A program made the position numbers and the translations under genes. Positions 9,701 through 63,839 of a stretch of DNA of 64,000 nt are shown here, piece after piece (position 1 is the first letter of the stretch; each line of letters starts with the position of its first letter). Below the pieces are notes generated by a model. That model saw nothing but the letters and a program-made list of their open reading frames with translations. It was not told where the DNA came from and made no database searches. The stretch is from contig JAVLUZ010000725.1 in the NCBI GenBank assembly GCA_036768485.1, positions 62,001 through 126,000 of the forward strand, given 5' to 3'. The stretch is from Mermis nigrescens (taxonomy: Eukaryota; Nematoda; Enoplea; Mermithida; Mermithidae).

Positions 9701-12700
9701 TAATGTTCGTCACTTTCTCCGTTTAGAAGGCAAGATAAGTCATATAGAATAAAAATAAAGTGCTTTCTAAGGCGTACACGTCACAGCAATTTACGTTTAT
9801 TTACATCAATATTTAACTTTTTCGGGAGGTATAAAGTCAAAAATTGGGGGTTTCTGGCTTGTTTTTTCTGCCGAGTTTCCGGTTATGAGTCTGGACATGA
9901 TCTCCAGTAAAAAATCAGACGTAATACGCCAGTTAAGCGCGTTTGTTTACACATAACAGTTGTGTAAAGTGCTTTACATATGATGTTTATTTGTCTTAAA
10001 TAAATTGTGGAGACTTAATTTTTTCATAAAAGTTGATCGTTATATCAGAGCAATATCAGAATTACGAATCCAACTTAAAATTTTCTTCACACTCGTAGGC
10101 TGCATAAGGTTTATACTGCAAATTTACTTCAGTTCTAGAGCCTTGCGGAAGCTTAATTTTTTCAAAATCACCTAGGTAACGTTAGAATTCTGAATCTGAA
10201 GGTTAGTTTTCTCTACACTTAGTAGTTGTGTAAAGTTTGCACTATACATTTATTGTTAGTGTGTAAACTTTACACTACAAATTTAATTTACTTCTAGAGC
10301 GTCGCAGAAGAAGTTTACACTGAAAATTGACTTTAGTTTCAGAGCGTTACAGAAGCTTATTTATTCAAAATGTTGCATGTAACGTCAGGATTGCGAATCT
10401 GAGCGCAAGTGTTCTTTACACCCAATAATTGCGTAAAGTTTATGCTGAAAACCTTTGATCCGTTTGATTGGGGAAGGTTGTCTTGTTTAACAAAGATAAT
10501 GCTTATGTTCAGAACAATATTGTTTTCCGGATCCCCGGATTGCTGTCACTATTATGGCATGTAACTGTATGTGTTTACTGACTGATTTACTCAAATCATG
10601 CTAATTAAAAGTAGGGCACTAGCAAAGAAAAATGCTGCGATGGAACAAAAAAACGATTATACTTAAGATTGTGGATTATAAAGGAAGTTAATGCAGGGGA
10701 CTAGAAAAAGTTACCTATGTATTTGCCTAAAGCCGCAAAATCTGCTAAAAATCAGACTTTCTCTAAGCATCGCAAAATTCGAAGTAAATTCTGCGACCTC
10801 TGAAAAAGTGTAACCTTCTTGAAACAATTATCAGTGCTTCACATAAGAGTATAATAAAGATTATCTAAAATGTATACTTTTCGTGAATTGCTTGCAAGTT
10901 GCAATACTGACTTGCTTTGTAACGTGATTGACAGAAAACTGCCATTGTATTTAAAGGTTTTATTTTGTTATTATGAGCATTATGGCAAGCAAAGCTGGCG
11001 TCAATTGGTTAGTGCAAATAAACGTTGCGAGCATGCAACAGTTCCTACATGTAGTCTGTTTCACGTAAGCTTAGGCGTTTCGTACCTGCTTTAAACCAAC
11101 AATTCCTTTGATTTACTTGAATGCATCGATGATTGCTATTTCATTCAATTGGCTTGCAAAGTCGCTCCTAGTCTACTCCATCTACTATCCCATAGCTACT
11201 GCATAGCTATAGTCTGTTTCATTTGTTTGAGAGCTTTTTCAGTTAATTTTTTGAAGGTTACATTATGCCTAACTAGGTGATTTACTGTAACTCGACAGAA
11301 AACTTGAGTGGGGGCGAGCGGCCGCTATTCTTTCTTTTTTAATGCACTAAACCGTCCATATAGACCTAATTCAAGCATCTAAATAGTGCTGTGACATGCT
11401 ACAAAAAATGCGCTAAATAAAAGTATTGCAGTAGGAATCGAACCCCTGTTGCTTCGACGACAATCAGACGTTCTACCACTACGCTAAGCGGAAGTTTTCG
11501 GCGATGTTTAAAATGATAGTCTATTGTGTTTAATGGTCGATTTATGACAAGTTGAATACGCAAATCCCATCCGCATGTTGCATGATGTGCTGGAAGACGG
11601 AATAAATTATGCCGTACGAAATTTTATTGAAAACACCTTCCTTCCTATGAGGCTACAGTGATCTCTAAATGACCTACAGTAAGTAGGGAATATAGAGCTA
11701 CAGTAGCCTCGGAGAAGATTTGCTGAAAAAGCTCTCGGCTAAATGAAACAGACTATAACTTGCTGCTTTTTAAATAATTTTTTTTGGTTCAATAGTTTAT
11801 TTCAATCTGCAGACCGCAGAATATACTTTTTTTTTGCGTTTCTTAGAGAAAATCTGATTTTTAACAGATTTTGCGACTTTAGGCAAATACATTGGTAGTT
11901 TTTCCCTAGTCTTATCCTTTTACATCCATTATGTAGGGAGAACGCACGTTTTTACACGGATCCCAAAAGTAAAAAATTTTTAAGTTCTCGGAGCACATTC
12001 GAATGACTGTTAGAATAGATTTTAGCATTGTTGAGCCGATGGGCATACATGATCTTGGGAGGGTAATAGGGTTGCCACTTGCCTCCATACATGGGCAGCA
12101 AAAAAATTCTGGTGGTGGGGGGAAAATCGCCGAAAATCGCCAAACATGTTAATAAAACTAGAATTTTGGGGGTCTACAGTAATCTGAAAGGGGTTTTTTA
12201 TTTTCTGAGAGGAAAATGTATACTCCCAGACCCCTCGCGCCTATGTGTGGTTGCATCCCCCTCAGAAAATTTTTCATCCCCTCCCCTAAGAAATTTTCCC
12301 ACCCCCCTAAGAAATTCCCTCTCAAAATTTGCGATTTTCTAAAATTTCCAAAAAAATTTGTAGAAGAGGTGCTTCTTAACCGTTTTTAAGCACCTATTAG
12401 CTCAAAAGTGTCAAATTTTCGGCACTTCGCGCCATGTAGACATTTTTTGACTATGTTTTGTTCAATTTATTCTAATTTTTTCATTTTTTGCGAAATTTTT
12501 TGTTTTAATGCTGTAGAATGACAGAGCATCGTCAAAACGACGGAAAAATGGTGTTTTAGACGCGTATCCACCATTTTAGGGCCCAAAAAGGTTTTTTAAA
12601 TTTTCACCACCCCACCCCCCCCCACAATTCCCATGCTGATGGGCACAATTTTCAGCCGAATTAGTTGCATTCATATTACTTTCGTTTCCCAAACAGCCTA

Positions 12701-30472: not shown

Positions 30473-30780
30473 TTGTGTCCCAACATGGTCACTAGTCCCA
30501 ACACGGCCACCGTCCCAACACAGCTACCGTCCCAACACGGCCACCAAAATTCCCAACATGGCCACCGTCCCAACACGGCCACCGTCTTTACACGGCTACA
30601 AAAATTAAAAACACGGCCACCGTCCCAACATAGCCACCGATCCCAACACGGCCACCAAAATTCCCAACACGGCCACCGTCCCAACACGGCCGCCATCCCA
30701 ACACGGCCACCGTTCCAACACGGCCACCGTCCCAACATGACCATCGTCCCAACAAAGCCTCTGTATCAACAAGGCCACTA
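30473..30780 (+). repeat. 17-bp minisatellite (CCCAACACGGCCACCGT)
   Basis: About 17 degenerate units of CCCAACACGGCCACCGT, some shortened or with an aaaatt spacer. Because 17 is not a multiple of 3, both strands read open across the array, giving spurious proteins rich in Q, H, P or W, G. A variant unit occurs at 49314 and 61143-63118. Confidence 0.9.
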
Positions 30781-30985: not shown

Positions 30986-31528
30986 TATAGTCTGTTTCAT
31001 TTATCCGAGAGCTTTTTCAGCAAATGTTTTCGGAGGTTACAGTAGCCCCTTCTTTCATTTACTGTAGGTCGCTAGATCTCACTACAGCTATGCAGTAAAG
31101 ACGGGTTTTTCAACAGCATTTTTGCGGCATAATTTATTCTCGTCTTCCAGCAGATAGATTAACTTACTGATAAAAATCGCGCGTTCATCATATCCTGAGT
31201 CGACACTTTAAACACAATCGACTAAGATGTTAAGAAACGCCGCGAACCCTCGCATAGCTCAGTGGTAAAACCTCTTGCTTGTAGTCGAAGCGACCCGGGT
31301 TCGATTCCAGCCGATAGCTTTTTGTTTGGCGCACTCACTGTAGTATGTCCCAGCACTGATTAAATGCCTAAATCAAATTTATTTGGGCGTATTAGAGCAT
31401 TAAAAATGGAAGAATTCTAGCCACTCGCCCTCACTGAGCTGATCTGCCGAAGTACAGTAATTCGTCTTGTTTAGCTTACTGTAGCCCTTAAAAGAATTGA
31501 CTAAAAAGCTCTCGAATAAATGAAACAG
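30986..31528 (+). mobile_element. TATAGTCTGTTTCA MITE with tRNA-like core
   Basis: The left end CTATAGTCTGTTTCATTTAT plus GAGAGCTTTTTCAG pairs with the right end AAAGCTCTCGAATAAATGAA followed by ACAGA. The usual CTATA end is replaced by the T-rich start of the Helitron-like sequence at 31531. Confidence 0.8.
31248..31318 (+). pseudogene. tRNA-like sequence inside a MITE (left copy)
   Basis: TAGCTCAGTGGTA (A box) and GGGTTCGATTCC (B box) are both good matches at normal spacing. The acceptor stem (CCTCGCA against CGATAGC) does not pair and the T stem is 3 of 5, so it is not a working tRNA. It is homologous to 11424-11493. Confidence 0.6.
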
Positions 31529-31923
31529 AGTTTTTTTTATATATATTTTTGAAAGTTTGTTTGTTTGTATGTTTGTGCCGGGTTGGCTCCGGCCCAATGA
31601 AATTTGGTGGGCTGATATTTTGGGCCGAGGTCGGTACAATGGGGAAGGAGCCGTAGCGATCTTGAAATTTCGACAAACGCACCCATTGGCCCTGGGCAGG
31701 AGGGAGCAGGGTTTGGCCCCTGTGCTATAAGCCTACGATTTCGGGAGATGGCCGATTTTTTGCTATTTTTTCAAAATGAGTTTATACTGTTTGTATAGGG
31801 ATACCCCGGCCAAGAGGAGCATGCCTGGCGACACTATGTACATTGTTATATGTTATAGCATTGGTCGGCACTGTGAAACATCAAAAATACGGGTTTAACC
31901 AAATGATGCTATAACATAGGCAA

Positions 31924-32262
31924 CTTTACAAGATAGGCATGGTATGAGATACTATGCTGCAACAAGATAAGCAATGCTTTAAGATAGGACGTAATATAAG
32001 ATACTCTGTGCTACAGGATAGGCAATACTATCAAGATAGGACGTGATATAAGACATCCCGTGCTACAAGATAGGCAATGCTATAAGATAGAACGTTATAA
32101 AAGATACCCCGTGCTACAAGATAGGCAATGCTATAAGATAGGAAGTGATATAAGATACCCCGAGCTGCAAGATAGGCAATGTTATAAAGATAGTATGGGA
32201 TATAAGATACCCTGTGCTACGAGATAGGCAATGCTATAAGATAGGTTTGGTATAGATACCCT
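31924..32262 (+). repeat. 51-bp tandem repeat array (left copy)
   Basis: About 6-7 units with gataggcaatgctataag and gatataagatacccc, period 51 bp with scattered indels. Confidence 0.85.
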
Positions 32263-32365
32263 GTCTGTGCCATAACATGCAGTGATATAAGATAGGAGAT
32301 ACCATCAGCTATAACATATCACGTGATATATGACACCCTTTGCTACAACAAACAAAAAATTTTTA

Positions 32366-32740
32366 AAACATCAAAAATATGGTTTGACCGAAAAAATTTT
32401 TCAAAACATCCTAAAACATCAAAAATAGTGGTTTGACGAAAAAATTTTCCAAAAGCATCCTAAAACATCAAAAATATGGTTTGACGAAAAAAATTTTCCA
32501 AAACATCCCAAAACATCAACAATATGGGTTTTATTAAAAAAATTTCCAGAACACCCCAGAACATCAAAAATATGATTATGGCTAAACAATTTTCAAAAAC
32601 CATTCTGTAACGTCAAAAATATGGATTTGATCAAAAAATGGTTGACAAAAGACATTTTTAAAAAAATCCAAAAAATAAAATATGGTTTGTACCAACAATT
32701 TTTTTTAGAAATATCCCAAAAACATCAAAAGTCTTGAAAA
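32366..32740 (+). repeat. 48-bp tandem repeat array (left copy)
   Basis: Units built on catcaaaaatatggtttgac and an A-rich tail, period 48-49 bp, becoming degenerate to the right. Confidence 0.85.
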
Positions 32741-33696
32741 ATAAAAAATACAAGAGACATATTAATTCCATATAGCTATCAGGCCTAAGTTCAGCCCGGG
32801 CAACGCCGGGCAGCTCAATTAGTTGCTAATAGTTTCGAAAAGCGGTAGGTAGTCGGCAGTGGGCACATCATTACAAAACAACATACAGCTTAATTCTTAT
32901 TCGGAGTCTTTTTAGGTTGTTTTCAACGCCTTTTCTCATTCTGAGTCGTTCTAGGTTGTTTTCGACGCGTTTGCTTATGCGGAGTCTTTTTAGATTGTTT
33001 TCGACGCGTTTCCTTATTCTGAGTCTTTTAATAATGTTTTCGCATTTTTTTGCACATTACACGAAGTATACGATCATGCAGTTCAGATATGATAGATTAC
33101 TTTTGCACGTGATGGCTTTGTATATGTAATTCCAGCGGAGAAGCTTGCTACACAATAGAACAGCCTGTCTAATTTGCCGCCTCGCTAAGGTACAAATTAG
33201 TGTTATTTTGATATACCAAAAATAAATTTTGGTGTGATTTTGGTAGGCACTTGCTGGACTATCAATATCATATTTTAATTCTGTGAATTTTGGTAAATCA
33301 TATTCTTATCATATTAAAACTCTGGAAACGTGGAAATATTTTTGATATAATTTTGGTATAATTTTAGTATAAAGTGGTAGCACTTATCCCTTTTTCGCTC
33401 TTTATCTTACTTATTTTGTACGTATGATGCAGTAGGTATTTTCCACATGTTGTATTATCATATGGAGACAAATACGTAAGTAGGTATGTACATATGTATA
33501 CCGAGCCGAGACCCCTCATACATATAGTCCATTGAGGTTTGTATACGGGTCTGGGTAAAATCCGGAAACGGAAACGGAAACGGAAACGGAAACAATGGGT
33601 AAAAGCCGGAAACGGAAACGGAAACAACGGGTAAAAGCCGGAAACGGAAACGGAAACAACGGGTAAAAGCCGAACCGAAACGGAAACGAACCAAAG

Positions 33697-35043
33697 TGGT
33701 GGAACCGGGGTTTTCCGTAGGGCTCCATCAGGTCAACACCCCCAACCCCGTTTCCGGTCCGCTGAAAATTTCCTCTAACCGGGGTGGACTCCCACACTCA
33801 TATGTGAATTCGACCCCTTGTCGACGGCTTCACCGACCCGGGGAGCGGGTCCAGCGCGGCGAAACTGGGCCCCCAAGTAGGCCCATCAGGATCAACGCCC
33901 CCGAACCCGTTTCCCGCCAAAATTTCCACAACTGAAGCGGGTTTAGGGCTGGAAGGGTACCCCATTATTCATATGGCGAAGGTGACCCCGGTTCCGTCGG
34001 GTACCTCGCCCCGGGAGGAAGCGGCGGAACCGGGTTCCCCAGGTAGGCCCATCAGGTCAACGCCCTCAACCCCGTTTCCCGCCGAAATTTTTCAACTGAA
34101 GGGGTTTAGGGCTAGGAAACAGGTACCCCATTATTCATATGTGAATCTGACCCCGGTTCCGTCGGGGGTTTCTTCGCCCTGGGAGGGGTCCAAAGTGGCG
34201 GGACCGGGTTCCCGCAGGGCCTATCAGGGCCAACACCCTGCCCGCTTTCCGCCAGGTTTCTCCAGCTTTAGCGGGCCCGAAACGGGGTACCCCATTTTTC
34301 GTATGCGAAAGGACCCCGGTCCCGCCGGTCTCCGCCTTGGAGCGGTCCAAAGTGGTGGAACTGGGGTTTCCCAGTAGCCCAAGGTCAACACCCCGACCCG
34401 CCGCAAATTTCCTCCAACTGAAGAAGGGTTTAGGGGCCCGGAAGCGGACACACCTATGGCGTGAACGGACCCCGGTCCCGTCGGCGGCTTCACCGATCTG
34501 GGAGCGGTCCAAAGTGGCAGAACCGGGGTTCCCATAGGGCCCATCAGGGTCAACGCCCCGAGCCCGTTTCCGCCAAAATTTCCACAACTGAAGGGGGGGT
34601 TTAGGGGCTCGGAAGGTACTCCCATTATTCATATGCGAGGACCCCGGTTCCGTCGGGGCTCCTCCGCCCTTTGAGCGGCACCAAGTGGTGGAACCGGGGC
34701 TTCCGAAGTAGGGCCCATCAAGGTCAACACCCCGACCCCGTTTCCGCCCTAACTCCGGAAGGGTCGAGGGCTCGGAAGCGGTACCCCATTATTCATATGT
34801 GAATCTGACCCCGGCCCTGTCGGCGGTTTCACCGACCTGGGAGCGGTCCAAAGTCGGGAACCGGGGTTCCCAGGTAGGGCCCATCAGGGTCAACGCCCTC
34901 AACCCCGTTTCCGCCGAAATTTCTTCAACTGAAGGGGGTTTAGGGGCTAGGAAACAGGGTACCCCATTATTCGGCATGTGAATCTGACCCCGGTTCCGTC
35001 GGGGGTTTCTTCGCCCTGGGAGGGGTCCAAAGTGGCGGAAACG
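33697..35043 (+). repeat. 181-bp GC-rich satellite, left arm (left copy)
   Basis: About 7 units with the order gaccccggttccgtcgg, gagcggtccaaag, gggcccatcagg, gtttccgccaaaatt, ggggtaccccattattcat. There are many one-base indels compared with the right copy, which suggests consensus errors near a contig end. Confidence 0.9.
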
Positions 35044-36732
35044 GGGTTGGGGTGTTGACCCCGATGTGGCCCTACTTGGGAAACCCCGGTTCCGCCACTT
35101 TGACCGCTCCCAGGGCGGAGAAACCCCCGACGGAACCGGGGTCTGATTCACACATGAATAACGGGGTACCCCGTTTCCGAGCCCCTAAACACCCCTTCAG
35201 TTGGAGAAATTTTGACGGAAACGAGGTTGGGGGTGTTGACCCTGATGGGCCCTACTTGAGGAACCCCGGTTCTGCCACTTTGGACCGCTGCCAGGGCGAT
35301 GAAACCCCCGACGGAACCATGGTCTGATTCACACATGACACAATGGGGTACCCCGTTTCCGAGCCCCTAAACACCCCTTCAGTTGGAGAAATTTTGACGG
35401 AAACGAGGTTGGGGGTGTTGGCCCTGATGGGCCCTACTTGAGGAACCCCGGTTCTGCCACTTTGGACCGCTGCCAGGGCGATGAAACCCCGACGGAACCG
35501 GGGTCTGATTCACACATGAATACTGGGGTACCCCGTTTCCGAGCCCCTAAAGACCCCTTCAGTTGGAGAAATTTTAGCGGAAACGGGGTTGGTGGTGTTG
35601 ACCCTGATGGGCCCTACTTGGGAAACCCCGGTTCCGCCACTTTGGACCGCTCCCACGGGCGGAGAAACCCCCGACGGAACCGGGGTCTGATTCACACATG
35701 AATAATGGGGTACCCCGTTTCCGAGCCCCTAAACACCCCTTCAGTTGGAGAAATTTTGACGGAAACGAGGTTGGGGGTGTTGACCCTGGATGGGCCCTAC
35801 TTGAGGAACCCCGGTTCTGCCACTTTGGACCGCTGCCAGGGCGATGAAACCCCCGACGGAACCGGGGTCTGATTCACACATGAATAATGGGGTACCCCGT
35901 TTCCGAGCCCCTAAAGACCCCTTCAGTTGGAGAAATTTTAGCGGAAACGGGGTTGGTGGTGTTGACCCCGATGGGCCCTACTTGGGAAACCCCGGTTCCG
36001 CCACTTTGGACCGCTCCCAGGGCGGAGAAACCCCCGACGGAACCGGGGTCTGATTCACACATGAATAATGGGGTACCCCGTTTCCGAGCCCCTAAACACC
36101 CCTTCAGTTGGAGAAATTTTGACGGAAACGAGGTTGGGGGTGTTGACCCTGATGGGCCCTACTTGAGGAACCCCGGTTCTGCCACTTTGGACCGCTGCCA
36201 GGGCGATGAAACCCCCGACGGAACCGGGGTCTGATTCACACATGAATAATGGGGTACCCTGTTTCCGAGCCCCTAAAGACCCCTTCAGTTGGAGAAATTT
36301 TAGCGGAAACGGGGTTGGTGGTGTTGACCCTGATGGGCCCTACTTGGGAAACCCCGGTTCCGCCACTTTGGACCGCTCCCAGGGCGGAGAAACCCCCGAC
36401 GGAACCGGGGTCTGATTCACACATGAATAATGGGGTACCCCGTTTCCGAGCCCCTAAACACCCCTTCAGTTGGAGAAATTTTAACGGAAACGAGGGTTGG
36501 GGGTGTTGACCCTGATGGGCCCTACTTGAGGAACCCCGGTTCTGCCACTTTGGACCGCTGCCAGGGCGATGAAACCCCGACGGAACCGGGGTCTGATTCA
36601 CACATGAATAATGGGGTACCCCGTTTCCGAGCCCCTAAAGACCCCTTCAGTTGGAGAAATTTTAGCGGAAACGGGGTTGGTGGTGTTGACCCTGATGGGC
36701 CCTACTTGGAAAACCCCGGTTCCGCCACTTTG
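35044..36732 (-). repeat. 181-bp GC-rich satellite, right arm (left copy)
   Basis: About 9 units of the same repeat in reverse orientation, far more uniform than the left arm. Two unit types alternate (gggttggtggtgttgac and gaggttgggggtgttgac). Confidence 0.9.
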
Positions 36733-36867
36733 GTTCGTTTCCGTTTCCGTTTCCGGCTTTTACCCGTTGTTTCCGTTTCCGTTTCCGGCTTTTACCCATT
36801 GTTTCCGTTTCCGTTTCCGGATTTTACTTCTCCCCTTTGTATACACCTACGTTATTCGTGTGTACTT

Positions 36868-37046
36868 CATTGGGCGTCGGGAAGGGGGTTTGCGGGAATG
36901 CAACCCCAGAAACTAAAATACCCCCTAGAATTCAATTGTTAAAATTTTTTTTGTTTTTTTCGCAATTTTTTGATGCCAATGGATATTCCTCGATGAGAAA
37001 CGTTGAAAAATGGTGTTTGTTCGCCATACCACCATTTTTATGGCCA
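36868..37046 (+). mobile_element. hAT-like GGGCGGC-family MITE cut by the gap
   Basis: It starts CATTGGGCGTCGGG after target copy GTGTACTT (36860-36867). Its right part falls in the N gap. The complete twin is 43515-43751. Confidence 0.85.
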
Positions 37047-37146
37047 NNNNNNNNNNNNNNNNNNNNNNNNNNNNNNNNNNNNNNNNNNNNNNNNNNNNNN
37101 NNNNNNNNNNNNNNNNNNNNNNNNNNNNNNNNNNNNNNNNNNNNNN
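37047..37146. other. Assembly gap, 100 N
   Basis: A run of exactly 100 N, the usual placeholder for a gap of unknown size. Confidence 0.99.
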
Positions 37147-37538
37147 TCTCGTCTTCCAGCAGATAAATTAACTTACTGATAAAAATCGCGCGTTCATCAT
37201 ATCCTGAGTCGACACTTTAAACACAATCGACTAAGATGTTAAGAAACGCCGCGAACCCTCGCATAGCTCAGTGGTAAAACCTCTTGCTTGTAGTCGAAGC
37301 GACCCGGGTTCGATTCCAGCCGATAGCTTTTTGTTTGGCGCACTCACTGTAGTATGTCCCAGCACTGATTAAATGCCTAAATCAAATTTATTTGGCCGTA
37401 TTAGAGCATTAAAAATGGAAGAATTCTAGCCACTCGCCCTCACTGAGCTGATCTGCCGAAGTACAGTAATTCGTCTTGTTTAGCTTACTGTAGCCCTTAA
37501 AAGAATTGACTAAAAAGCTCTCGAATAAATGAAACAGA
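37147..37538 (+). mobile_element. TATAGTCTGTTTCA MITE, left end lost at the gap
   Basis: Same element as 30986-31528 but starting inside it because the contig begins there. The right end ATGAAACAGA is intact. Confidence 0.8.
37257..37327 (+). pseudogene. tRNA-like sequence inside a MITE (right copy)
   Basis: Identical A and B boxes and the same unpaired acceptor stem as 31248-31318. Confidence 0.6.
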
Positions 37539-37929
37539 GTTTTTTTTATATATATTTTTGAAAGTTTGTTTGTTTGTATGTTTGTGCCGGGTTGGCTCCG
37601 GCCCAATGAAATTTGGTGGGCTGATATTTTGGGCCGAGGTCGGTACAATGGGGGAAGGAGCCGTAGCGATCTTGAAATTTCGACAAACGCACCCATTGGC
37701 CCTGGGCAGGGAGGGAGCAGGGTTTGGCCCCTGTGCTATAAGCCTCCACGATTTCGGGAGATGGCCGATTTTTTGCTATTTTTTTTCAAAAATGAGTTTA
37801 TACTGTTTGTATAGGGATACCCCGGCCAAGAGGAGCATGCCTGGCGACACTATGTACATTGTTATATGTTATAGCATTGGTCGGCACTGTGAAACATCAA
37901 AATACGGGTTTAACCAAATGATGCTATAA

Positions 37930-38270
37930 CATAGGCAATTTTATAAGATAGGCATGGTATGAGATACTATGTGCAACAAGATAAGCAATGCTATAAGATA
38001 GGACGTAATATAAGATACTCTGTGCTACAGGATAGGCAATACTATCAGATAGGACGTGATATAAGACATCCCGTGCTACAAGATAGGCAATGCTATAAGA
38101 TAGAACGTTATAAAAGATACCCCGTGCTACAAGATAGGCAATGCTATAAGATAGGAAGTGATATAAGATACCCCGAGCTGCAAGATAGGCAATGTTATAA
38201 GATAGTATGGGATATAAGATACCCTGTGCTACGAGATAGGCAATGCTATAAGATAGGTTTGGTATAGATA
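37930..38270 (+). repeat. 51-bp tandem repeat array (right copy)
   Basis: Units start gataggcaat at 38031 and 38082, exactly 51 bp apart. Since 51 is a multiple of 3 and the copy has few indels, it reads as a 17-residue repeat, which I treat as spurious. Confidence 0.88.
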
Positions 38271-38370
38271 CCCTGTCTGTGCCATAACATGCAGTGATAT
38301 AAGATAGGAGATACCATCAGCTATAACATATCACGTGATATATGACACCCTTTGCTACAACAAACAAAAA

Positions 38371-38740
38371 ATTTTTAAAACATCAAAAATATGGTTTGAC
38401 CGAAAAAATTTTTCAAAACATCCTAAAACATCAAAAATATGGTTTGACGAAAAAAATTTTCCAAAGCATCCTAAAACATCAAAAATATGGTTTGACGAAA
38501 AAATTTTCCAAAACATCCCAAAACATCAACAATATGGGTTTTATTAAAAAAATTTCCAGAACACCCCAGAACATCAAAAAATATGATTATGGCTAAACAA
38601 TTTTCAAAAACCATTCTGTAACGTCAAAAATATGGATTTGATCAAAAAATGGTTGACAAAAGACATTTTTAAAAAATCCAAAAAATAAAATATGGTTTGT
38701 ACCAACAATTTTTCTAGAAATATCCCAAAAGCATCAAAAG
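38371..38740 (+). repeat. 48-bp tandem repeat array (right copy)
   Basis: The motif catcaaaaat recurs at 38381, 38429 and 38478, giving 48-49 bp spacing, then decays. Confidence 0.88.
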
Positions 38741-39691
38741 TCTTGAAAAATAAAAAATACAAGAGACATATTAATTCCATATAGCTATCAGGCCTAAGTT
38801 CAGCCCGGGCAACGCCGGGCAGCTCAACTAGTTGCTAATAGTTTCGAAAAGCGGTAGGTAGTCGGCAGCGGGCACATCATTACAAAACAACATACAGCTT
38901 AATTCTTATTCGGAGTCTTTTTAGGTTGTTTTCAACGCCTTTTCTCATTCTGAGTCGTTCTAGGTTGTTTTCGACGCGTTTGCTTATGCGGAGTCTTTTT
39001 AGATTGTTTTCAACGCGTTTCCTTATTCTGAGTCTTTTAATAATGTTTTCGCATTTTTTTGCACATTACACGAAGTATACGATCATGCAGTTCAGATATG
39101 ATAGATTACTTTTGCACGTGATGGCTTTGTATATGTAATTCCAGCGGAGAAGCTTGCTACACAATAGAACAGCCTGTCTAATTTGCCGCCTCGCTAAGGT
39201 ACAAATTAGTGTTATTTTGATATACCAAAAATAAATTTGTGTGATTTTGGTAGGCACTTGCTGGACTATCAATATCATATTTTAATTCTGTGAATTTTGA
39301 TAAATCACATTCTTATCATATTAAAACTCTGGAAACGTGGAAATATTTTTGATATAATTTTGGTATAATTTTAGTATAAAGTGGTAGCACTTATCCCTTT
39401 TTCGCTCTTTATCTTACTTATTTTGTACGTATGATGCAGTAGGTATTTTCCACATGTTGTATTATCATATGGAGACAAATACGTAAGTAGGTATGTACAT
39501 ATGTATACCGAGCCGAGCCCCCTCATACATATAGTCCATTGAGGTTTGTATACGGGTCTCGGGTAAAATCCGGAAACGGAAACGGAAACGGAAACAATGG
39601 GTAAAAGCCGGAAACGGAAACGGAAACAACGGGTAAAAGCCGGAAACGGAAACGGAAACAACGGGTAAAAGCCGGAACCGGAAACGGAAAC

Positions 39692-42600
39692 GAACCAAAG
39701 TGGTGGAACCGGGGTTTTCCAAGTAGGGCCCATCAGGGTCAACACCCCCAACCCCGTTTCCGCCAAAATTTCTCCAACTGAAGAAGGGTTTAGGGGCTCG
39801 GAAACGGGGTACCCCATTATTCATATGTGAATCTGACCCCGGTTCCGTCGACGGTTTCACCGACCTGGGAGCGGTCCAAAGTGGCGGAACCGGGGTTCCC
39901 CAAGTAGGGCCCATCAGGATCAACGCCCCCGAACCCGTTTCCGCCAAAATTTCCACAACTGAAGGGGGGTTTAGGGGCTCGGAAACAGGGTACCCCATTA
40001 TTCATATGCGAAGGTGACCCCGGTTCCGTCGGGTGTTTCTCCGCCCTGGGAGCGGTCCAAAGTGGCAGAACCGGGGTTCCCCAGGTAGGGCCCATCAGGG
40101 TCAACGCCCTCAACCCCGTTTCCGCCGAAATTTCTTTAACTGAAGGGGGTTTAGGGGCTAGGAAACAGGGTACCCCATTATTCATATGTGAATCTGACCC
40201 CGGTTCCGTCGGGGGTTTCTTCGCCCTGGGAGGGGTCCAAAGCGGCGGAACTGGGGTTCCCCAAGTAGGGCCTATCAGGGTCAACACCCCCAACCCTGTT
40301 TCCGCCAAAATTTCTCCAACTGAAGGGGTTTTAGGGGCTCGGAAACGGGGTACCCCATTTTTCGTATGCGAAAGTGACCCCGGTTCCGTCGGGGGTTTCT
40401 CCGCCCTTGGAGCGGTCCAAAGTGGTGGAACTGGGGTTTCCCAAGTAGGGCCCATCAAGGTCAACACCCCGACCCCGTTTCCGCCAAAATTTCTCCAACT
40501 GAAGAAGGGTTTAGGGGCTCGGAAACGGGGTACCCCATTATTCATATGTGAATCTGACCCCGGTTCCGTCGGCGGTTTCACCGACCTGGGAGCGGTCCAA
40601 AGTGGCGGAACCGGGGTTCCCAAGTAGGGCCCATCAGCGTCAACGCCCCCGAGCCCGTTTCCGCCAAAATTTCCACAACTGAAGGGGGGTTTAGGGGCTC
40701 GGAAACAGGGTACCCCATTATTCATATGCGAAAGTGACCCCGGTTCCGTCGGGGGTTTCTCCGCCCTTGGAGCGGTACAAAGTGGTGGAACCGGGGTTTC
40801 CCAAGTAGGGCCCATCAAGGTCAACACCCCCGACCCCGTTTCCGCCAAAATTTCTCCAACTGAAGAAGGGTTTAGGGGCTCGGAAACGGGGTACCCCATT
40901 ATTCATATGTGAATCTGACCCCGGTTCCGTCGGCGGTTTCACCGACCTGGGAGCGGTCCAAAGTTGCGGAACCGGGGTTCCCCAGGTAGGGCCCATCAGG
41001 GTCAACGCCCCCGAGCCCGTTTCCGCCAAAATTTCCACAACTGAAGGGGGGTTTAGGGGCTCGGAAACAGGGTACCCCATTATTCATATGCGAAAGTGAC
41101 CCCGGTTCCGTCGGGGGTTTCTCCGCCCTTGGAGCGGTACAAAGTGGTGGAACCGGGGTTTCCCAAGTAGGGCCCATCAAGGTCAACACCCCCGACCCCG
41201 TTTCCGCCAAAATTTCTCCAACTGAAGAAGGGTTTAGGGGCTCGGAAACGGGGTACCCCATTATTCATATGTGAATCTGACCCCGGTTCCGTCGGCGGTT
41301 TCACCGACCTGGGAGCGGTCCAAAGTGGCGGAACCGGGGGTTCCCCAAGTAGGGCCCATCAGCGTCAACGCCCCCGAGCCCGTTTCCGCCAAAATTTCCA
41401 CAACTGAAGGGGGGTTTAGGGGCTCGGAAACAGGGTACCCCATTATTCATATGCGAAAGTGACCCCGGTTCCGTCGGGGGTTTCTCCGCCCTTGGAGCGG
41501 TACAAAGTGGTGGAACCGGGGTTTCCCAAGTAGGGCCCATCAAGGTCAACACCCCCGACCCCGTTTCCGCCAAAATTTCTCCAACTGAAGAAGGGTTTAG
41601 GGGCTCGGAAACGGGGTACCCCATTATCTGCATGCGTGAATCTGACCCCGGTTCCGTCGGCGGTTTCACCGACCTGGGAGCGGTCCAAAGTTGCGGAACC
41701 GGGGTTCCCCAGGTAGGGCCCATCAGGGTCAACGCCCTCAACCCCGTTTCCGCCGAAATTTCTTCAACTGAAGGGGGTTTAGGGGCTAGGAAACAGGGTA
41801 CCCCATTATTCATATGTGAATCTGACCCCGGTTCCGTCGGGGGTTTCTTCGCCCTGGGAGGGGTCCAAAATGGCGGAACTGGGGTTCCCCAAGTAGGGCC
41901 TATCAGGGTCAACACCCCAACCCTGTTTCCGCCAAAATTTCTCCAACTGAAGGGAGTTTTAGGGGCTCGGAAACGGGGTACCCCATTTTTCGTATGCGAA
42001 AGTGACCCCGGTTCCGTCGGGGGTTTCTCCGCCCTTGGAGCGGTCCAAAGTGGTGGAACCGGGGTTTCCCAAGTAGGGCCCATCAAGGTCAACACCCCCG
42101 ACCCCGTTTCCGCCAAAATTTCTCCAACTGAAGAAGGGTTTAGGGGCTCGGAAACGGGGTACCCCATTATTCATATGTGAATCTGACCCCGGTTCCGTCG
42201 GCGGTTTCTCCGCCCTGGGAGCGGTCCAAAGTGGCAGAACCGGGGTTTCCCAGGTAGGGCCCATCAGGGTCAACGCCCTCAACCCCGTTTCCGCCGAAAT
42301 TTCTGCAACTGAAGGGGGTTTAGGGGCTAGGAAACAGGGTACCCCATTATTCATTTGTGAATCTGACCCCGGTTCCGTCGGGGGTTTCTTCGCCCTGGGA
42401 GGGGTCCAAAGTGGCGGAACCGGGGTTCCCCGAGTAGGGCCTATCAGGGTCAACACCCCCATCCCAGTTTCCGCCAAAATTTCTCCAACTGAAGGGGTTT
42501 TAGGGGCTCGGAAACGGGGTACCCCATTATTCAGATGTGAATCTAACCCCGGTTCCGTCGGGGGTTTCACCGCCCTGGTAGCGGTCCAAGTGGCGGAACC

Positions 42601-42960
42601 GGGTCCCTCAAGTAGGGCCAATCAGGTCAACACCCCCAACCCCGTTTCCGCCGAAACCTCTCCAATTGAAGGGGTGCCGAGCTCGGAAGCGGGGGCTGCC
42701 CCATTATTCATGTGTGAATCAGACCCGAGTTCCGTCGGGGTTCTCTCCGCCCTAGGAGCGGTCCAAAGTGGCGGAACCGGGAGTTTCCAAGCAGGGCCCA
42801 TCAGGGTCAACACCCCAACCCCGTTTCCGCCGAAAATTCTCCAACTGAAGGGGGTTTTAGGGGCTCGGAAACGGGGTACCGCATTATTCATATGTGAATC
42901 AGACCCAGGTTCCGTCGGGGGTTTCACCGCCCTGGGAGAGGTCCAAAGTGGCGGAAACGG
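39692..42960 (+). repeat. 181-bp GC-rich satellite, forward arm (right copy)
   Basis: About 18 units. From about 40540 to 41640 two unit types alternate (gtcggcggtttcaccgacctg and gtcgggggtttctccgccctt, differing by a few bases), giving a 362-bp higher-order repeat. Confidence 0.92.
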
Positions 42961-43380
42961 GGTTGGGGTGTTGACCCTGATGGGCCCTACTTGGGAAACC
43001 CCGGTTCCGCCACTTTGGACCGCTCCCAGGGCGGAGAAACCCCCGACGGAACCGGGGTCTGATTCACACATGAATAATGGGGTACCCCGTTTCCGAGCCC
43101 CTAAACACCCCTTCAGTTGGAGAAATTTTGACGGAAACGAGGTTGGGGGTGTTGACCCTGATGGGCCCTACTTGAGGAACCCCGGTTCTGCCACTTTGGA
43201 CCGCTGCCAGGGCGGTGAAACTCCCGACGGAACCGGGGTCTGATTCACACATGAATAATGGGGTACCCCGTTTCCGAGCCCCTAAAGACCCCTTCAGTTG
43301 GAGAAATTTTAGCGAAAACGGGGTTGGTGGTGTTGACCCTGATGGGCCCTACTTGGAAAACCCCGGTTCCGCCACTTTGG
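42961..43380 (-). repeat. 181-bp GC-rich satellite, inverted arm (right copy)
   Basis: About 2.3 units in reverse orientation, directly followed by the inverted (GTTTCC)n block. Confidence 0.9.
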
Positions 43381-43514
43381 TTCGTTTCCGTTTCCGTTTC
43401 CGGCTTTTACCCGTTGTTTCCGTTTCCGTTTCCGGCTTTTACCCATTGTTTCCGTTTCCGTTTCCGGATTTTACTTCTCCCCTTTGTATACACCTACGTT
43501 ATTCGTGTGTACTT

Positions 43515-43751
43515 CATTGGGCGTCGGGAAGGGGTTTGCGGGAATGCAACCCCAGAAACTAAAATACCCCCAGAATTCAATCGTTAAAATTTTTTTTGTT
43601 TTTTTTTCGCAATTTTTTGATGCCAATGGATATTCCTCGATGAGAAACGTTGAAAAATGGTGTTTGTTCGCCATACCACCATTTTTATGGCCATTTTTTT
43701 GACCTTTGAAAAAAACTTGCACCCCCAGAACTTTGGAGCCGCCCACCTATA
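43515..43751 (+). mobile_element. hAT-like GGGCGGC-family MITE, complete
   Basis: The 237-bp element starts CATTGGGCGTCGGG and ends CGCCCACCTATA. A perfect 8-bp duplication GTGTACTT flanks it (43507-43514, 43752-43759). It inserted right beside the Foldback-like element. Confidence 0.88.
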
Positions 43752-59863: not shown

Positions 59864-62800
59864 CTATAAGAATTTGAAAAGATGAGTGTACATATGTGCA
59901 TACATATTAAACATAATTATTTTAACCAAACTTAAAAATAGAAACATTTTAGTGGCAAAAACTATATGTAGTGTATTTCGCGAAACCTTTTGCATGGAAA
60001 CCAATCCACAGTATGTGTAAGAGTGACAACAAAAGTAGTTAATTTACAGACATTTTTCAGTAACAAAATGTTGCATAACACAAGTTTATTCAGTTCTTAT
60101 TTATTAAATTTAGTGGTCAACGCTTGTTCTCTGTTTCATAAGCGATGAGGTATAAATTTATGATTTTGCTGCAGATTTCTACAAATTAATCAATTTGTGA
60201 AATTAATTATTCCTGCTTAGCTTATATATACATTTTCGTAATAAATCTTAGTCTTTTTTATTCTTTACTTCATTTAATGTGCAAACATATAAATAAACAA
60301 TTTTTACCAACTTTTTTTGTCAATCAGGTGAAGCATTTTGGGGCCCATTTCCGAACACTCAGGCTTGAACCAGGCTTAAATCTGACTTTAGGGTCGAATT
60401 TAAGCCCGCCACGATCTTTAGTCATAGACAATAACTGCTTATTTGAACACCTCTCTAATTATCATCAAAGAATAAAATCGTTTTTACTGTTGTCAGAAGT
60501 CCAGTTTAATCGATGATGCCTGTTCTTCTCCGATGGTATTAAGCTATTTTGTGAACACAGAAAAACGGCACTTCGGAAGTTGCGGTCGATGAAAAAATTA
60601 AGCTCCATGTCGTCATCATGATCGCCAAACGGGTTGCAAAGCCTTTCAGCCACTGCAACATCATAAGCTTTCCTATATTATAAACCGTGATGCTTACAGC
60701 TCGGAAGGGAGACTTCATACAACTTAATTATAAAATTGAGGTTTCAGATGAACTTAATTGATTCCCATTTTCTTCATCAGCGTCGGAGTTACTGGGAAAA
60801 ATTTTTTCTAGCTCAAAATTTTTTATTTTAATTTTTTTAAAAGTCGATTAACTTAAATTTAATTCAAACTTTTAGTTTGCGCAGCTGGTTGATTTCATGC
60901 GTGACGAAGCAGTCTTTATTGACTGCTTGAAAAATAATCGTAACTCTCATGACAAATAAAAAATGAGTCTTTTTTCGATAAAATAATGATTCAGTCATTT
61001 TTTGCGTTTTTTTCATACACATATTTTCTTTAATCTCGGCGACTGTGATACGTGCTGCTAGGAAATGATGTAAAGAACTGAGAATTGAAGGAAAAGAAAG
61101 CTTATGGCTGACAATTTTTCTTACGCACCTATAAAGATAAATGTCACATTCACATTCCCACAGTCCCCAACACTCCCACCCTTTCAACATTCCCACCGCG
61201 GAGTCCCAATATTCCAACCGCGAGTCTCAACATTCTCACCGTCCCAACGCTCCCATCGTCCCAACTTTCCCACCGTCCCAACATTCCCACCGTAGGTCCC
61301 AAAATTCCCACTGTCCCAACACTCCCACCGTCCCAACATTCCAACCATCCCAGCATTTTCACCATGAGTCCAAACCAGACATGCACATAGGGAGAGATGG
61401 AGGGTTTAGGGGTCCAGCCCGGAATGGAAATGAAAAAATTTCTCATAAAAAAAGGCAAAATAAAAGCGAAAAATGGACGAAAATCCAAAACTTTCTCCAA
61501 AAATGTTGCAAATTGACTAAAAAGTGTAGATAAAGCAGTTTAACGCTATTCTAGAATTTTTAGCAATTTTAGCGTCATTTTAGCTCCTGAAGAGCTCGAT
61601 TGTTGATCCCCTAGACCGGTTATGCTGTTCATCTATGGCCCGAACATGCCCCTCGTCCCAAACTTTTGACCGCAGGTCTCTTTCTTCCCACCGCAAGTCC
61701 AAACTTTGCCACCGTCCCGACATTCCAGCCATCCCAACACTCCCACCGTCCCAACATTCCCAATGCAAGTACCAACACTGCCACCCGCAGAAAAAACCAT
61801 GCTACTGGAATAAAATACGGAATTTGCTGTAAAAGTGCATACATGTATTATATGTATTATATGTACGCGCACGGAAATTTGGTTGTAAAGAAGCTTGCCG
61901 TACACTTGAGACCACACCTGGGCGTGGGGGGTTTGCGGGGGGGTATGCACCCCCCCAGAAACCAAAATACCCCCCCCCCCAGAAATCAAAATACCCCCCC
62001 CAGAATTCAATTTTTGAAAATTTTTTTTCGTTTTTTTCGCAAGTTTTTGATGCCAATGGATAGTGCTTGATGAGAAACGTCGAAAAATGGTGTTTTTATC
62101 GCCATACCACCATTTTTAAGGCCATTTTTCGACCTTCAAAAAAATCTTGCACCCCCCCAGAATTTTCTTGCTGCCCACGTATGCTTGAGACACGTGTTTG
62201 GTATGAACGTATTTGATTGGTCAACATCATGTAGATAGGCAGACATTACTCTTACTCGTAAATTACATGTACACGTAATGTAGTTAGGCAGCGAATAAAT
62301 TCTTAGAAGGTATCTATTGGGATGAAAATCGCGAAAAATGCCTCAAATACAATCTTGGGATCTCTGCTAAATTGTATGGAGTATGCATTTTAAGGGCTCT
62401 AATCTCCCGCTTACTACCACCCGTTGGGTGAGAATGTTGGGACGTTGGCAATGTTGAGACTACCGGTGGGAACGTTGGGACGATGGGAATCTTAGGATGG
62501 TGGCAATGTTGAAAGGTGGCAAAACTGGAGCTTGCGGTGGGAATATTGAGACTCGCGGTGGGAGGGTTGGGACGATGGGACCGTAGATGCACATTGGTCT
62601 TGAGGGGTAAAAACTGGAGCTTATCAAGAACCAATACGACGCAAAAAACTTGTAAAAATTCTACAATTGCGTAAAAACTGCGTTGATCTAAATACAGTTT
62701 TTCTTAAGTTTGAAGCATTTCGGAGAAATTTATGGATTTTGCCTGTTTTTAGCTTTTATTGTGCCTCTTTCCCATTACACATTTTTACTTTTCCATTCTG

Positions 62801-63839
62801 AGGTCTAGACCCCAAACCCTCCCATTTCCCTATGTGCATGTCTGGTTGGGACCATATGTGGGCAGCAAGAAAATTCTGGGGGTCAGGATAGGTAAAATTG
62901 CCAAAAATGTTATTAAAAGTATAATTCTGGAGTTCTACAGTAATCTGGGGGTTTTCAACTTCTGGGGTTACAAACCCCCACGCTTATGTGTGGTTGGGAC
63001 TCACAGTGGGAATGCTGGTACGGTGGGAATGTTAGGACTCGTTGTGGCAATGTTGGGGGGACCCGGGTTGGGAATGTTGGGAGTGGGAATGTTGAGACGG
63101 TGGGAATGTTGGGACACGACCATGTCCAGAAACAAATTTTTAAAAGCTGTTACATTTTGTCGAGGTGTTTGTGCGTAGTCTTGACTCAAAAGATAAGGCA
63201 AGCCAACCAGATTGGGAATAGCTTTGATTGGAGTCATGTAGGGTTACATTCATACCTGGGCGTGGGATTTGGGGGTATGCAGCCCCCAGAAATTAAAATA
63301 CCCCCCAGAATTCAATTTTTGGAAACTTTTTTCTGCAATTTTTGATGCCAATGGATAGTGTTCGATGAGAAACGTTGAAAAATGGTGTTTTTTTCGCCAT
63401 ACCACAATTTTTAAGGCCACCTTTTGACCTTTGAAAAAATCTTGCACCCCCTTCCAGAACTTGGGTGCCGCCCACCTATGGTCACATTGTATCGTTTGAA
63501 CAACTCTTTACCTTTCAAGCATCCTACGTAGAGCACGAAAAGAAACAGAGTCAATATCGGTATTAAAACGTCCACATTTGTAGTCATATGCTGATGCCCA
63601 AATAAACATAAAGCAAGATAGCCATAAACGACAGTGGAGACCGCTTGAACACCAACCAAGGGTAAGTCGACCCATTGAAAAAAGCAAAGCTTGTACAAGG
63701 ACTTTTCAATTAAATCGATTTCATGTATTAAGTTGTCAAGATTTCGCTGCCTTTCCAAGAATTTGTTAGAGTGAGAATTCAGCGCATTGAGTAGCCAGTG
63801 CATAGGTAGCTGCCATCGAATATTTTTGCACGCACAAGC
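59694..63839 (-). CDS. Bestrophin-family anion channel, 3' portion (partial gene)
   Basis: Bestrophins are pentameric calcium-gated chloride/anion channels of plasma or intracellular membranes. Three exons on the minus strand fit: 63839-63512, 60652-60572 and, less surely, 59863-59694 with a stop codon. The first covers the C-terminal part of the cytosolic domain and the last membrane helices (WVDLPLVGVQAVSTVVYGYL, then LFVLYVGCLK). The second holds the hallmark NPFGDHDDDMELNFFIDRN. The gene start, with the pore and gate helix, lies beyond base 64000. If the third exon is right, the C-terminus is short compared with vertebrate bestrophins. The first intron (2.86 kb) contains minisatellites and two hAT-like elements. 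Confidence 0.88.
60572..60652 (-). CDS. Bestrophin exon: calcium-clasp motif
   Basis: After acceptor GTTGCAG| the frame is (V)AERLCNPFGDHDDDMELNFF then IDRNFR. It corresponds to VAEQLINPFGEDDDDFE..WIVDRN in known bestrophins. The donor CGAA|GTGCCG is weak; it is chosen because it keeps phase with the candidate last exon. The open frame could instead continue past it to a stop near 60465. Confidence 0.82.
61143..61372 (+). repeat. 17-bp minisatellite (CCCAACATTCCCACCGT)
   Basis: About 12 degenerate units; a variant of the unit at 30473-30780. It lies in the bestrophin intron. Confidence 0.88.
61640..61790 (+). repeat. 17-bp minisatellite, second tract
   Basis: About 8 units in the same orientation as 61143-61372, separated from it by a 270-bp unique-looking element (ccagacatgcacataggg to gaacatgcccctcg). 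Confidence 0.8.
61913..62183 (+). mobile_element. hAT-like GGGCGGC-family MITE, complete
   Basis: The 271-bp element starts CACACCTGGGCGTGGGGG and ends GCTGCCCACGTATG, with a perfect 8-bp duplication CTTGAGAC (61905-61912, 62184-62191). It lies in the bestrophin intron. Confidence 0.92.
62413..62585 (-). repeat. 17-bp minisatellite, inverted tract
   Basis: About 8 degenerate units of the 61143 repeat in reverse orientation (ggtgggaacgttgggac). Confidence 0.8.
62853..62992 (+). mobile_element. 140-bp hAT-like MITE in minisatellite-flanking sequence
   Basis: It starts CATATGTGGGCAGC and ends CGCTTATGTGTG, with a perfect 8-bp duplication GTTGGGAC (62845-62852, 62993-63000). A relative sits inside 12044-12635. 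The target is itself part of the 17-bp unit. Confidence 0.85.
62998..63118 (-). repeat. 17-bp minisatellite, inverted tract
   Basis: About 7 units (ggtgggaatgttgggac) in the same orientation as 62413-62585. Confidence 0.82.
63251..63480 (+). mobile_element. hAT-like GGGCGGC-family MITE, complete
   Basis: The 230-bp element starts CATACCTGGGCG and ends CGCCCACCTATG, a 12-bp inverted repeat with two mismatches. Flanks GTTACATT and GTCACATT match at 7 of 8. It lies 31 bp from a bestrophin splice donor (63511), inside the intron. Confidence 0.9.
63512..63839 (-). CDS. Bestrophin exon: cytosolic helices and last TM segments
   Basis: The exon gives 109 residues plus one base. After acceptor GTTTTTTAG| it reads ACACKNIRWQLPMHWLLNAL, then RQRNLDNLIHEIDLIEKSLY, KLCFFQWVDLPLVGVQAVST and hydrophobic segments up to YVGCLK. 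The donor is AAAG|GTAAAGAG. It aligns with the EMN..R..CG.LY.YDW...PLVY.Q block and the YVGWLKVAE segment of bestrophins. The end phase (1) supplies the G of the GTG codon in the next exon. Confidence 0.9.

Follow-up and report, generated by a model that had tools for sequence, protein, structure and literature searches.

A foldback-type transposon family of Mermis nigrescens with arms made of a 181-bp GC-rich satellite

The 64,000-nucleotide stretch of Mermis nigrescens DNA analysed here (the window) carries an element whose arms are opposed arrays of a 181-bp satellite. In our view (probability about 0.85), it belongs to a non-autonomous foldback family, probably mobilised by a Mutator-like transposase, that carries and amplifies this satellite. 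An earlier note, made from the window alone, had read the structure as a foldback-type transposon, and this reading is supported by the presence of its ends with 9-bp duplications at other loci and by empty sites. Under the mechanism that we favour, the element would rely on a transposase provided in trans and belonging, most likely, to the Mutator (MULE) superfamily; by cutting and joining the ends, which consist of GGGTGTGG-type and GGGGAAAA-type octamers followed by GTAAAATCCGG and (GGAAAC)n subterminal repeats, this enzyme would generate the 9-bp target duplications. The tandem 181-bp units would be inherited inside the element as arms meeting head to head at inverted homologies within the unit, and unequal exchange would change arm length. 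Transposition would thereby disperse the satellite, with some copies growing long and more homogeneous arrays.

Direct reading of the window confirmed the architecture that the note had described, namely short inverted ends, inner blocks of (GGAAAC)n, and 181-bp GC-rich arrays placed head to head, with a 9-bp duplication outside. Copy A starts at 33547 with GGGTCTGG-GTAAAATCCGG and finishes at 36835, where the reverse strand reads GGGGAGAA-GTAAAATCCGG. Its left terminal domain (33547..33690, forward strand) contains that end, (GGAAAC)n and 32-bp subterminal repeats, and is followed by a left satellite arm with 8 unit matches (33691..35025, forward), a centre where unit positions 181 and 72 are joined (GGCGGAAACGGGG, 35026..35032), a right arm with 10 unit matches (35033..36733, reverse) and the right terminal domain (36734..36835, reverse). 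The termini of copy B, at 39554 and 43482, pair as in copy A, with one extra base before GTAAAATCC at the left end; they enclose a left terminal domain (39554..39694, forward), a left arm with 18 unit matches (39695..42941, forward), a right arm with 3 (42949..43380, reverse) and a right terminal domain (43381..43482, reverse). The nonamer TTTGTATAC lies on the forward strand at four places, 33538..33546 and 36836..36844 around copy A and 39545..39553 and 43483..43491 around copy B, and its identification as the target-site duplication rests on direct reading, the duplication count and the empty-site paralogues. Long inverted arms of tandem repeats, variable in length, are as expected of a foldback element. 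At the four element ends the pattern GGGNNNNNGTAAAATCC showed no mismatch in three and one mismatch in the fourth. Since it matched 11 times in the window with up to two mismatches, versus 7.2 expected, this short pattern alone is little proof, and the proof is genome-wide.

While each of the two copies does have the structure of an element, as the earlier note held, they do not represent two separate insertions. Their left flanks (31138-33537 and 37147-39544) are 98.6% identical, with 13 mismatches and 17 gap openings, their right flanks (36836-37046 and 43483-43693) are 97.7% identical, and the copy sequences meet a 100-N gap (37047..37146) from both sides. Because of this, the pair is, to judge from the sequence, a single insertion that was either assembled twice (haplotypic overlap) or locally duplicated in tandem. 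A genuine duplication in tandem, about 6 kb long, as opposed to two haplotypes joined end to end, would account for the identity of both flanks, but the duplicated stretch stops exactly at the gap on both sides, like an unmerged contig overlap, and we regard such a duplication as unlikely. With near-identical flanks, the arrays differ in size (8 plus 10 unit matches in A, 18 plus 3 in B). Short units of 165-171 bp (TRF), mostly due to deletions, occur in the left arm of copy A; this arm had 7.7 gaps per 100, compared with 0.0-0.6 in the other three, and its short units therefore probably reflect poor sequence quality.

The other loci with these ends and 9-bp duplications, which the earlier note had proposed to seek, were found. 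Perfect 9-bp duplications flanked 8 of 15 two-ended elements and two more matched at 8 of 9 positions, whereas among 210 mispaired flanks none reached 8 of 9 and two reached 7; among lengths of 5 to 12, only 9 bp was duplicated. The remaining five elements had no clear duplication. The count of 15 leaves aside L010 (the contig starts at the element), L013 (truncated end), L019 (left flank of N), L053 and L054 (one end unrecognised), as well as loci with a single end. The insertion site of the window was empty in all 40 paralogues scored out of 982 candidates, and other empty sites were observed for L058, L035, L013, L022 and L030. L058 carries a 7.0-kb element at a site whose empty paralogue lies in the window itself (31068..31179, reverse strand), as an unbroken repeat with a single TAAATTATG at the insertion point. 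When 11 joined flanks were compared locally, clear empty sites were obtained for L058 only, with a weak and partial one for L014. A 5.0-kb insert within L058, whose ends are 93.5% identical direct repeats, was discounted, being taken for an LTR-like insertion nested in the element. Insertion as a unit with a target-site duplication, the other mark of a foldback element, is thus present in this family.

With regard to the transposase, Mutator superfamily elements produce target duplications of 8-11 bp (PMC6446971), and those found here were of 9 bp only (8 of 15). A Pfam MULE search gave 60 hits in the genome, which encodes Phantom-like proteins with FLYWCH and MULE domains; FLYWCH was present in four of five scanned MULE frames, and these four had no element ends within about 1.5 kb. 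No transposase with matching ends came to light among the hits that could be checked, and the 12 best of the 60 loci had neither element ends nor satellite within about 1.5 kb. Within 20 kb of the listed places there was one MULE hit for the GGGGAAAA list and one for the junction list (about 0.45 expected each), and two for the GGGTGTGG list; one of these hits, on C137, lies outside an element whose own duplication is complete; the other, a 528-aa MULE frame, is 13.9 kb from a GGGTGTGG end that faces it (C61:40966259-40985000). Inside the elements, viewed for 1.5 kb from the end at most of 30 end-motif loci, no transposase was recognised among the listed open frames (by eye, and for five frames by Pfam).

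Among the other classes considered, a non-autonomous member of Rehavkus is possible though doubtful. Rehavkus elements encode a PHD-finger transposase, carry minisatellites in their termini and make 9-bp duplications like those described here (PMC6446971). In Tribolium, the 9.5-kb transposon Rehavkus-1_TC (TCsat23) has, as here, satellite arrays within its inverted termini, with a unit of 164 bp (PMC10218199). Against this class, the only PHD-finger frame met (L040), with PHD above the Pfam cut-off plus weaker zinc-binding matches, looked LINE ORF1-like by eye and was set aside as a transposase. Target duplications in the P group are 7-8 bp long, and the exact 9 bp of this family speak against a Galileo-like foldback element of that superfamily, which we consider improbable. 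The point in its favour is that Galileo combines a foldback structure with internal tandem repeats (PMC4079207).

In the listed places the satellite is dispersed and lies mostly near these ends. Of 221 arm junctions, 100 were listed, and within this list junctions less than 20 kb apart formed 23 convergent pairs, no divergent pair and one same-strand pair, which was the window's own duplicate. Among listed exact termini, 26 of 28 neighbour pairs less than 10 kb apart were convergent with one GGGTGTGG-type and one GGGGAAAA-type end; of the 27 convergent pairs, 26 were mixed. Terminal domain and satellite join in a single phase, which was recovered, allowing at most two substitutions, in 18 of the 19 loci retrieved. 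One element with a long array spans 13.8 kb between arm junctions (C61:22436586-22450432), and the 2.5 kb of it that were read were a solid array with units 96.4% identical. An exact 21-base end motif gave no match in viral contigs. Of 44 clusters of exact units, 27 were near a listed end, as compared with 1.5 by random placement. For the other 17, none of the exact ends or junctions on the lists lay within 5 kb, so that part of the satellite may sit outside recognisable elements. The distribution is that of the assembled sequence, where collapsed or missing arrays escape view. These 17 clusters, together with a locus (L027) that has units in both orientations and no ends, would fit an ordinary dispersed satellite, its arrays inverted by recombination and never transposed as a unit. 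However, the exact 9-bp duplications, the empty sites, the fixed junction phase and the clustering near ends make this very improbable as a general account, and for two-ended copies with duplications it is already refuted. Nor did the listed places show the satellite mainly as large ordinary arrays of centromeric type without other ends, which the note had named as fatal to its proposal. Helitrons and Helentrons make no target duplication and have no terminal inverted repeats, and as satellite carriers they do not fit this family, which has both.

Elements of this kind are already known in flies, beetles and nematodes (Tetris, Rehavkus-1_TC and Tm1), and in the literature consulted the present family found no match among those described. 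FB elements of Drosophila melanogaster have inverted arms of short tandem repeats and 9-bp duplications. Tetris (TIR-220) of Drosophila virilis is likewise a foldback element with satellite-size tandem repeats in its inverted arms, which expand into long, more homogeneous arrays; it makes 8-10 bp duplications and, as in the present family, an autonomous copy was not found (PMC4079207). Its unit is AT-rich and of 220 bp and sits within a flanking domain reaching as much as 866 bp (PMC4079207), while the GC-rich 181-bp units of the window begin about 100-145 bp from the ends and the middle domain is usually almost nil. Tm1, of the Mutator/Foldback family in Meloidogyne, has repeats of about 14 bp, and a copy is known that encodes a Phantom-like transposase (PMC3169594), whereas here the arms are a 181-bp satellite and an autonomous copy was not found. 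The two different short terminal motifs, one per end, are a Tm1-like trait. No 181-bp GC-rich foldback satellite is named in the parts consulted of the open-licence literature.

CGGAAMCGG, the terminal-domain motif, occurs four times in the consensus unit, a number reached by none of 2000 Markov sequences, and nine times in the left terminal domain of copy B. Conservation of the four motif windows (means of 0.91-0.93 versus a unit mean of 0.88) is a modest excess, and other windows of the unit are conserved as highly or more. We tentatively propose that the satellite itself may be functional within the transposon, with every unit forming an alternating cluster of four putative transposase-binding sites; since the motif is present in both ends and units, longer arms would add such sites.

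How satellites originate and become scattered is an old question, and here an assembled genome shows one carried by a transposon that leaves clean scars on insertion. Empty sites are present, the junction is fixed, array length differs between near-identical copies, and in one element the arm junctions are 13.8 kb apart. The shared CGGAAMCGG offers a testable reason for transposon arms turning into satellite and, if the proposal is true, selection for mobility would build and spread satellite DNA, the long arrays being a by-product.

Reading the window sequence (C689:62001-126000) bore out the inverted ends with inner (GGAAAC)n blocks, the satellite arrays of opposing orientation and the TTTGTATAC duplication that the earlier note had ascribed to copies A (33547-36835) and B (39554-43482). 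The two copies are not independent, as their flanks are near-identical (98.6% over 2.4 kb on the left, 97.7% over 211 bp on the right) and the common stretch halts at the 100-N gap (37047-37146) in A and resumes just past it in B. Two haplotype contigs that overlap but were left unmerged would give this picture; a tandem duplication is an unlikely source of the pair. Copy A has 8 unit matches in its left arm and 10 in its right, copy B 18 and 3, and thus array length varies between otherwise near-identical copies. Gaps number 7.7 per 100 in the left arm of A and 0.0-0.6 in the three remaining arms, a difference that would fit the loss of bases at inverted duplicates described in a report on nanopore reads (PMC7229812), if the reads are of that type. 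Two reading frames resemble, by eye, exons of a sugar transporter and a bestrophin, which marks the sequence as animal. A second foldback-like structure lies at 61150-63120, with opposed arms of a 17-bp minisatellite (GTCCCAACATTCCCACC) that are about 72-97% complementary in 25 listed pairs, and a related 17/55-bp minisatellite (GTCCCAACACGGCCACC) forms a single-orientation array at 30477-30778.

Further loci with these ends and 9-bp duplications were found, as the earlier note had proposed to look for, in the assembly (524 Mb, 860 contigs). Searching with 1 kb that spans copy A's end produced 145 matches from the 21 candidates scored, out of 1295, and 18 of the 19 loci drawn from them (L009-L027, all except L027) carried at least one element end, in a sample biased to such loci because the query contained the terminal domain. 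Thirty more (L028-L057) were chosen by exact end motif; with L028 set aside as the beginning of L010, the satellite was present in 27 of 29, some of them overlapping or duplicated, and absent from L046 and L048. A shorter end motif matched 2927 times at up to two mismatches, subterminal repeats included. L025 and L026 (C644:250335-258998 and C137:696219-704890) have a flank in common and 48 satellite units apiece, and are probably duplicate haplotype sequence. Two assembly breaks coincide exactly with element ends: contig C7 begins (C7:1) at an element's first base, and a 100-N gap immediately precedes the element of L019 (C61:33096836).

Fifteen two-ended elements had readable flanks. Identical 9-bp flanks were seen in eight (the window, L009, L012, L014, L017, L022, L032 and L058, the start of the last being placed one base further inward as guided by its empty-site alignment), and 8/9 matches in L015 and L020; L011 matched at 7/9 and L023 at 6/9, and the 9-bp comparison gave no match for L018, L021 and L030. 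L011 and L021, whose flanks are alike by eye, are probably one insertion. None of the 15 had a duplication of 5-8 or 10-12 bp, and 210 mispaired flanks gave no match at 8/9 and two at 7/9. With the element removed, the window site was found running unbroken over the junction in all 40 scored paralogues (982 candidates, genome-wide search; 88-94% identity). When 11 joined sites were compared with local sequence, only L058 had a clear empty site, present at window 31068-31179 and in L035, L013, L022 and L030, and more weakly at window 11434-11757; L014 matched weakly and in part, and the remaining nine gave no match in the locally compared sequence, the genome-wide search covering the window site alone.

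The arm junction GGAAACGAACCAAAGTGGCGGAACC occurred 108+113 times at up to two mismatches (control, 0), and neighbours less than 20 kb apart among 100 listed were convergent in 23 cases, divergent in none and on the same strand in one, the window's own duplicate. Exact 25-base termini numbered 99 for the GGGGAAAA type and 162 for the GGGTGTGG type (controls, 0). Pairing 100 listed GGGTGTGG-type termini with the 66 of 99 GGGGAAAA-type termini on the same contigs (C7-C229) yielded 28 neighbouring pairs under 10 kb, of which 26 were convergent and mixed, and the like-type pairs were one convergent and one divergent. Fourteen of the 26 span 537-984 bp (10 of them 802-842 bp) and are a MITE-like form; the other 12 span 1.9-9.2 kb.

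In the places listed, and as far as arrays are represented in the assembly, satellite occurring mainly as ordinary arrays was not seen. A 30-base piece of the unit matched 1377+1703 times at up to three mismatches (control, 0), or about 0.56 Mb assuming one unit per match, and 100 listed matches were spread over many contigs. Among 44 clusters of 100 listed exact matches, 27 had a listed end or junction no more than 5 kb away, where random placement would give 1.5, and 17 had none within that distance, in a count that relies on mostly exact ends and that decayed ends escape. The longest cluster among the matches listed (C61:22437240-22449954) is flanked by a convergent pair of arm junctions with 13.8 kb between them; 2.5 kb sampled from it was solid array, with 13 units at 96.4% identity, where units on average were 89.5% identical when compared inside a locus and 86.2% when compared across loci. 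This long homogeneous array resembles TIR-220 as described in the Tetris report (PMC4079207).

A Mutator-type transposase with matching ends, for which the earlier note had proposed to search, was not linked to the element among the loci covered. PF10551 matched 60 places in the genome, and four of five scanned frames had the FLYWCH+MULE make-up of Phantom; none of the listed interior frames was recognised as a transposase (five by Pfam), none of the 12 best MULE loci read had these ends or the satellite within about 1.5 kb, and the positions of MULE matches showed no clear association with listed ends or junctions. Several PF10551 loci carry repeated inverted arms that differ in sequence from these; inverted repeats of other sequence lie near either side of transposase loci L065, L067, L069 and L070, and L061, L063, L064 and L066 are at least 99% identical to one another over 1.1-2.5 kb. 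In the interval C61:40966259-40980457, a GGGTGTGG end points towards a 528-aa MULE frame that lies 13.9 kb downstream of it. In L040 (1-1029), a PHD-finger frame, LINE ORF1-like by eye, is fused directly onto a satellite unit. Since no transposase was linked to the element, we do not assign the family to Mutator, Phantom or Rehavkus. It is like Tm1 in having 9-bp duplications, arms of tandem repeats and a different terminal motif at each end (PMC3169594), and like Tetris (PMC4079207) and Rehavkus-1_TC (PMC10218199) in arms holding satellite-size units.

The consensus unit holds four CGGAAMCGG motifs in alternating orientation (mean 0.004 in 500 mononucleotide shuffles and 0.03 in 2000 Markov sequences, none with four), and in copy B the left terminal domain holds nine. 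Their conservation in the unit is modestly above average only, so that they are putative transposase sites. Of 30 listed joins, which include duplicated loci, 25 have the arms overlapping or no more than 14 bp apart, and 23-418 bp separate them in L009, L017, L020, L037 and L047. Joins fall at unit positions 181|72 in window copies A and B, L010, L011, L021, L019 and L014, within a few bases of it in L013, L058 and L053/L054, and at 181|155-156 in L012 and L016, with L023 near it and further joins elsewhere. By eye on the consensus, the recurrent join points are inverted homologies inside the unit (TGGCGGAACCGGGGTT versus TGGCGGAAACGGGGTT, 15/16), which suggests strand switching or exchange between the inverted arms. 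At its other boundary, with the terminal domain, the satellite keeps a single phase in 18 of 19 fetched loci (up to two substitutions), and therefore the arms have been passed on within the element.
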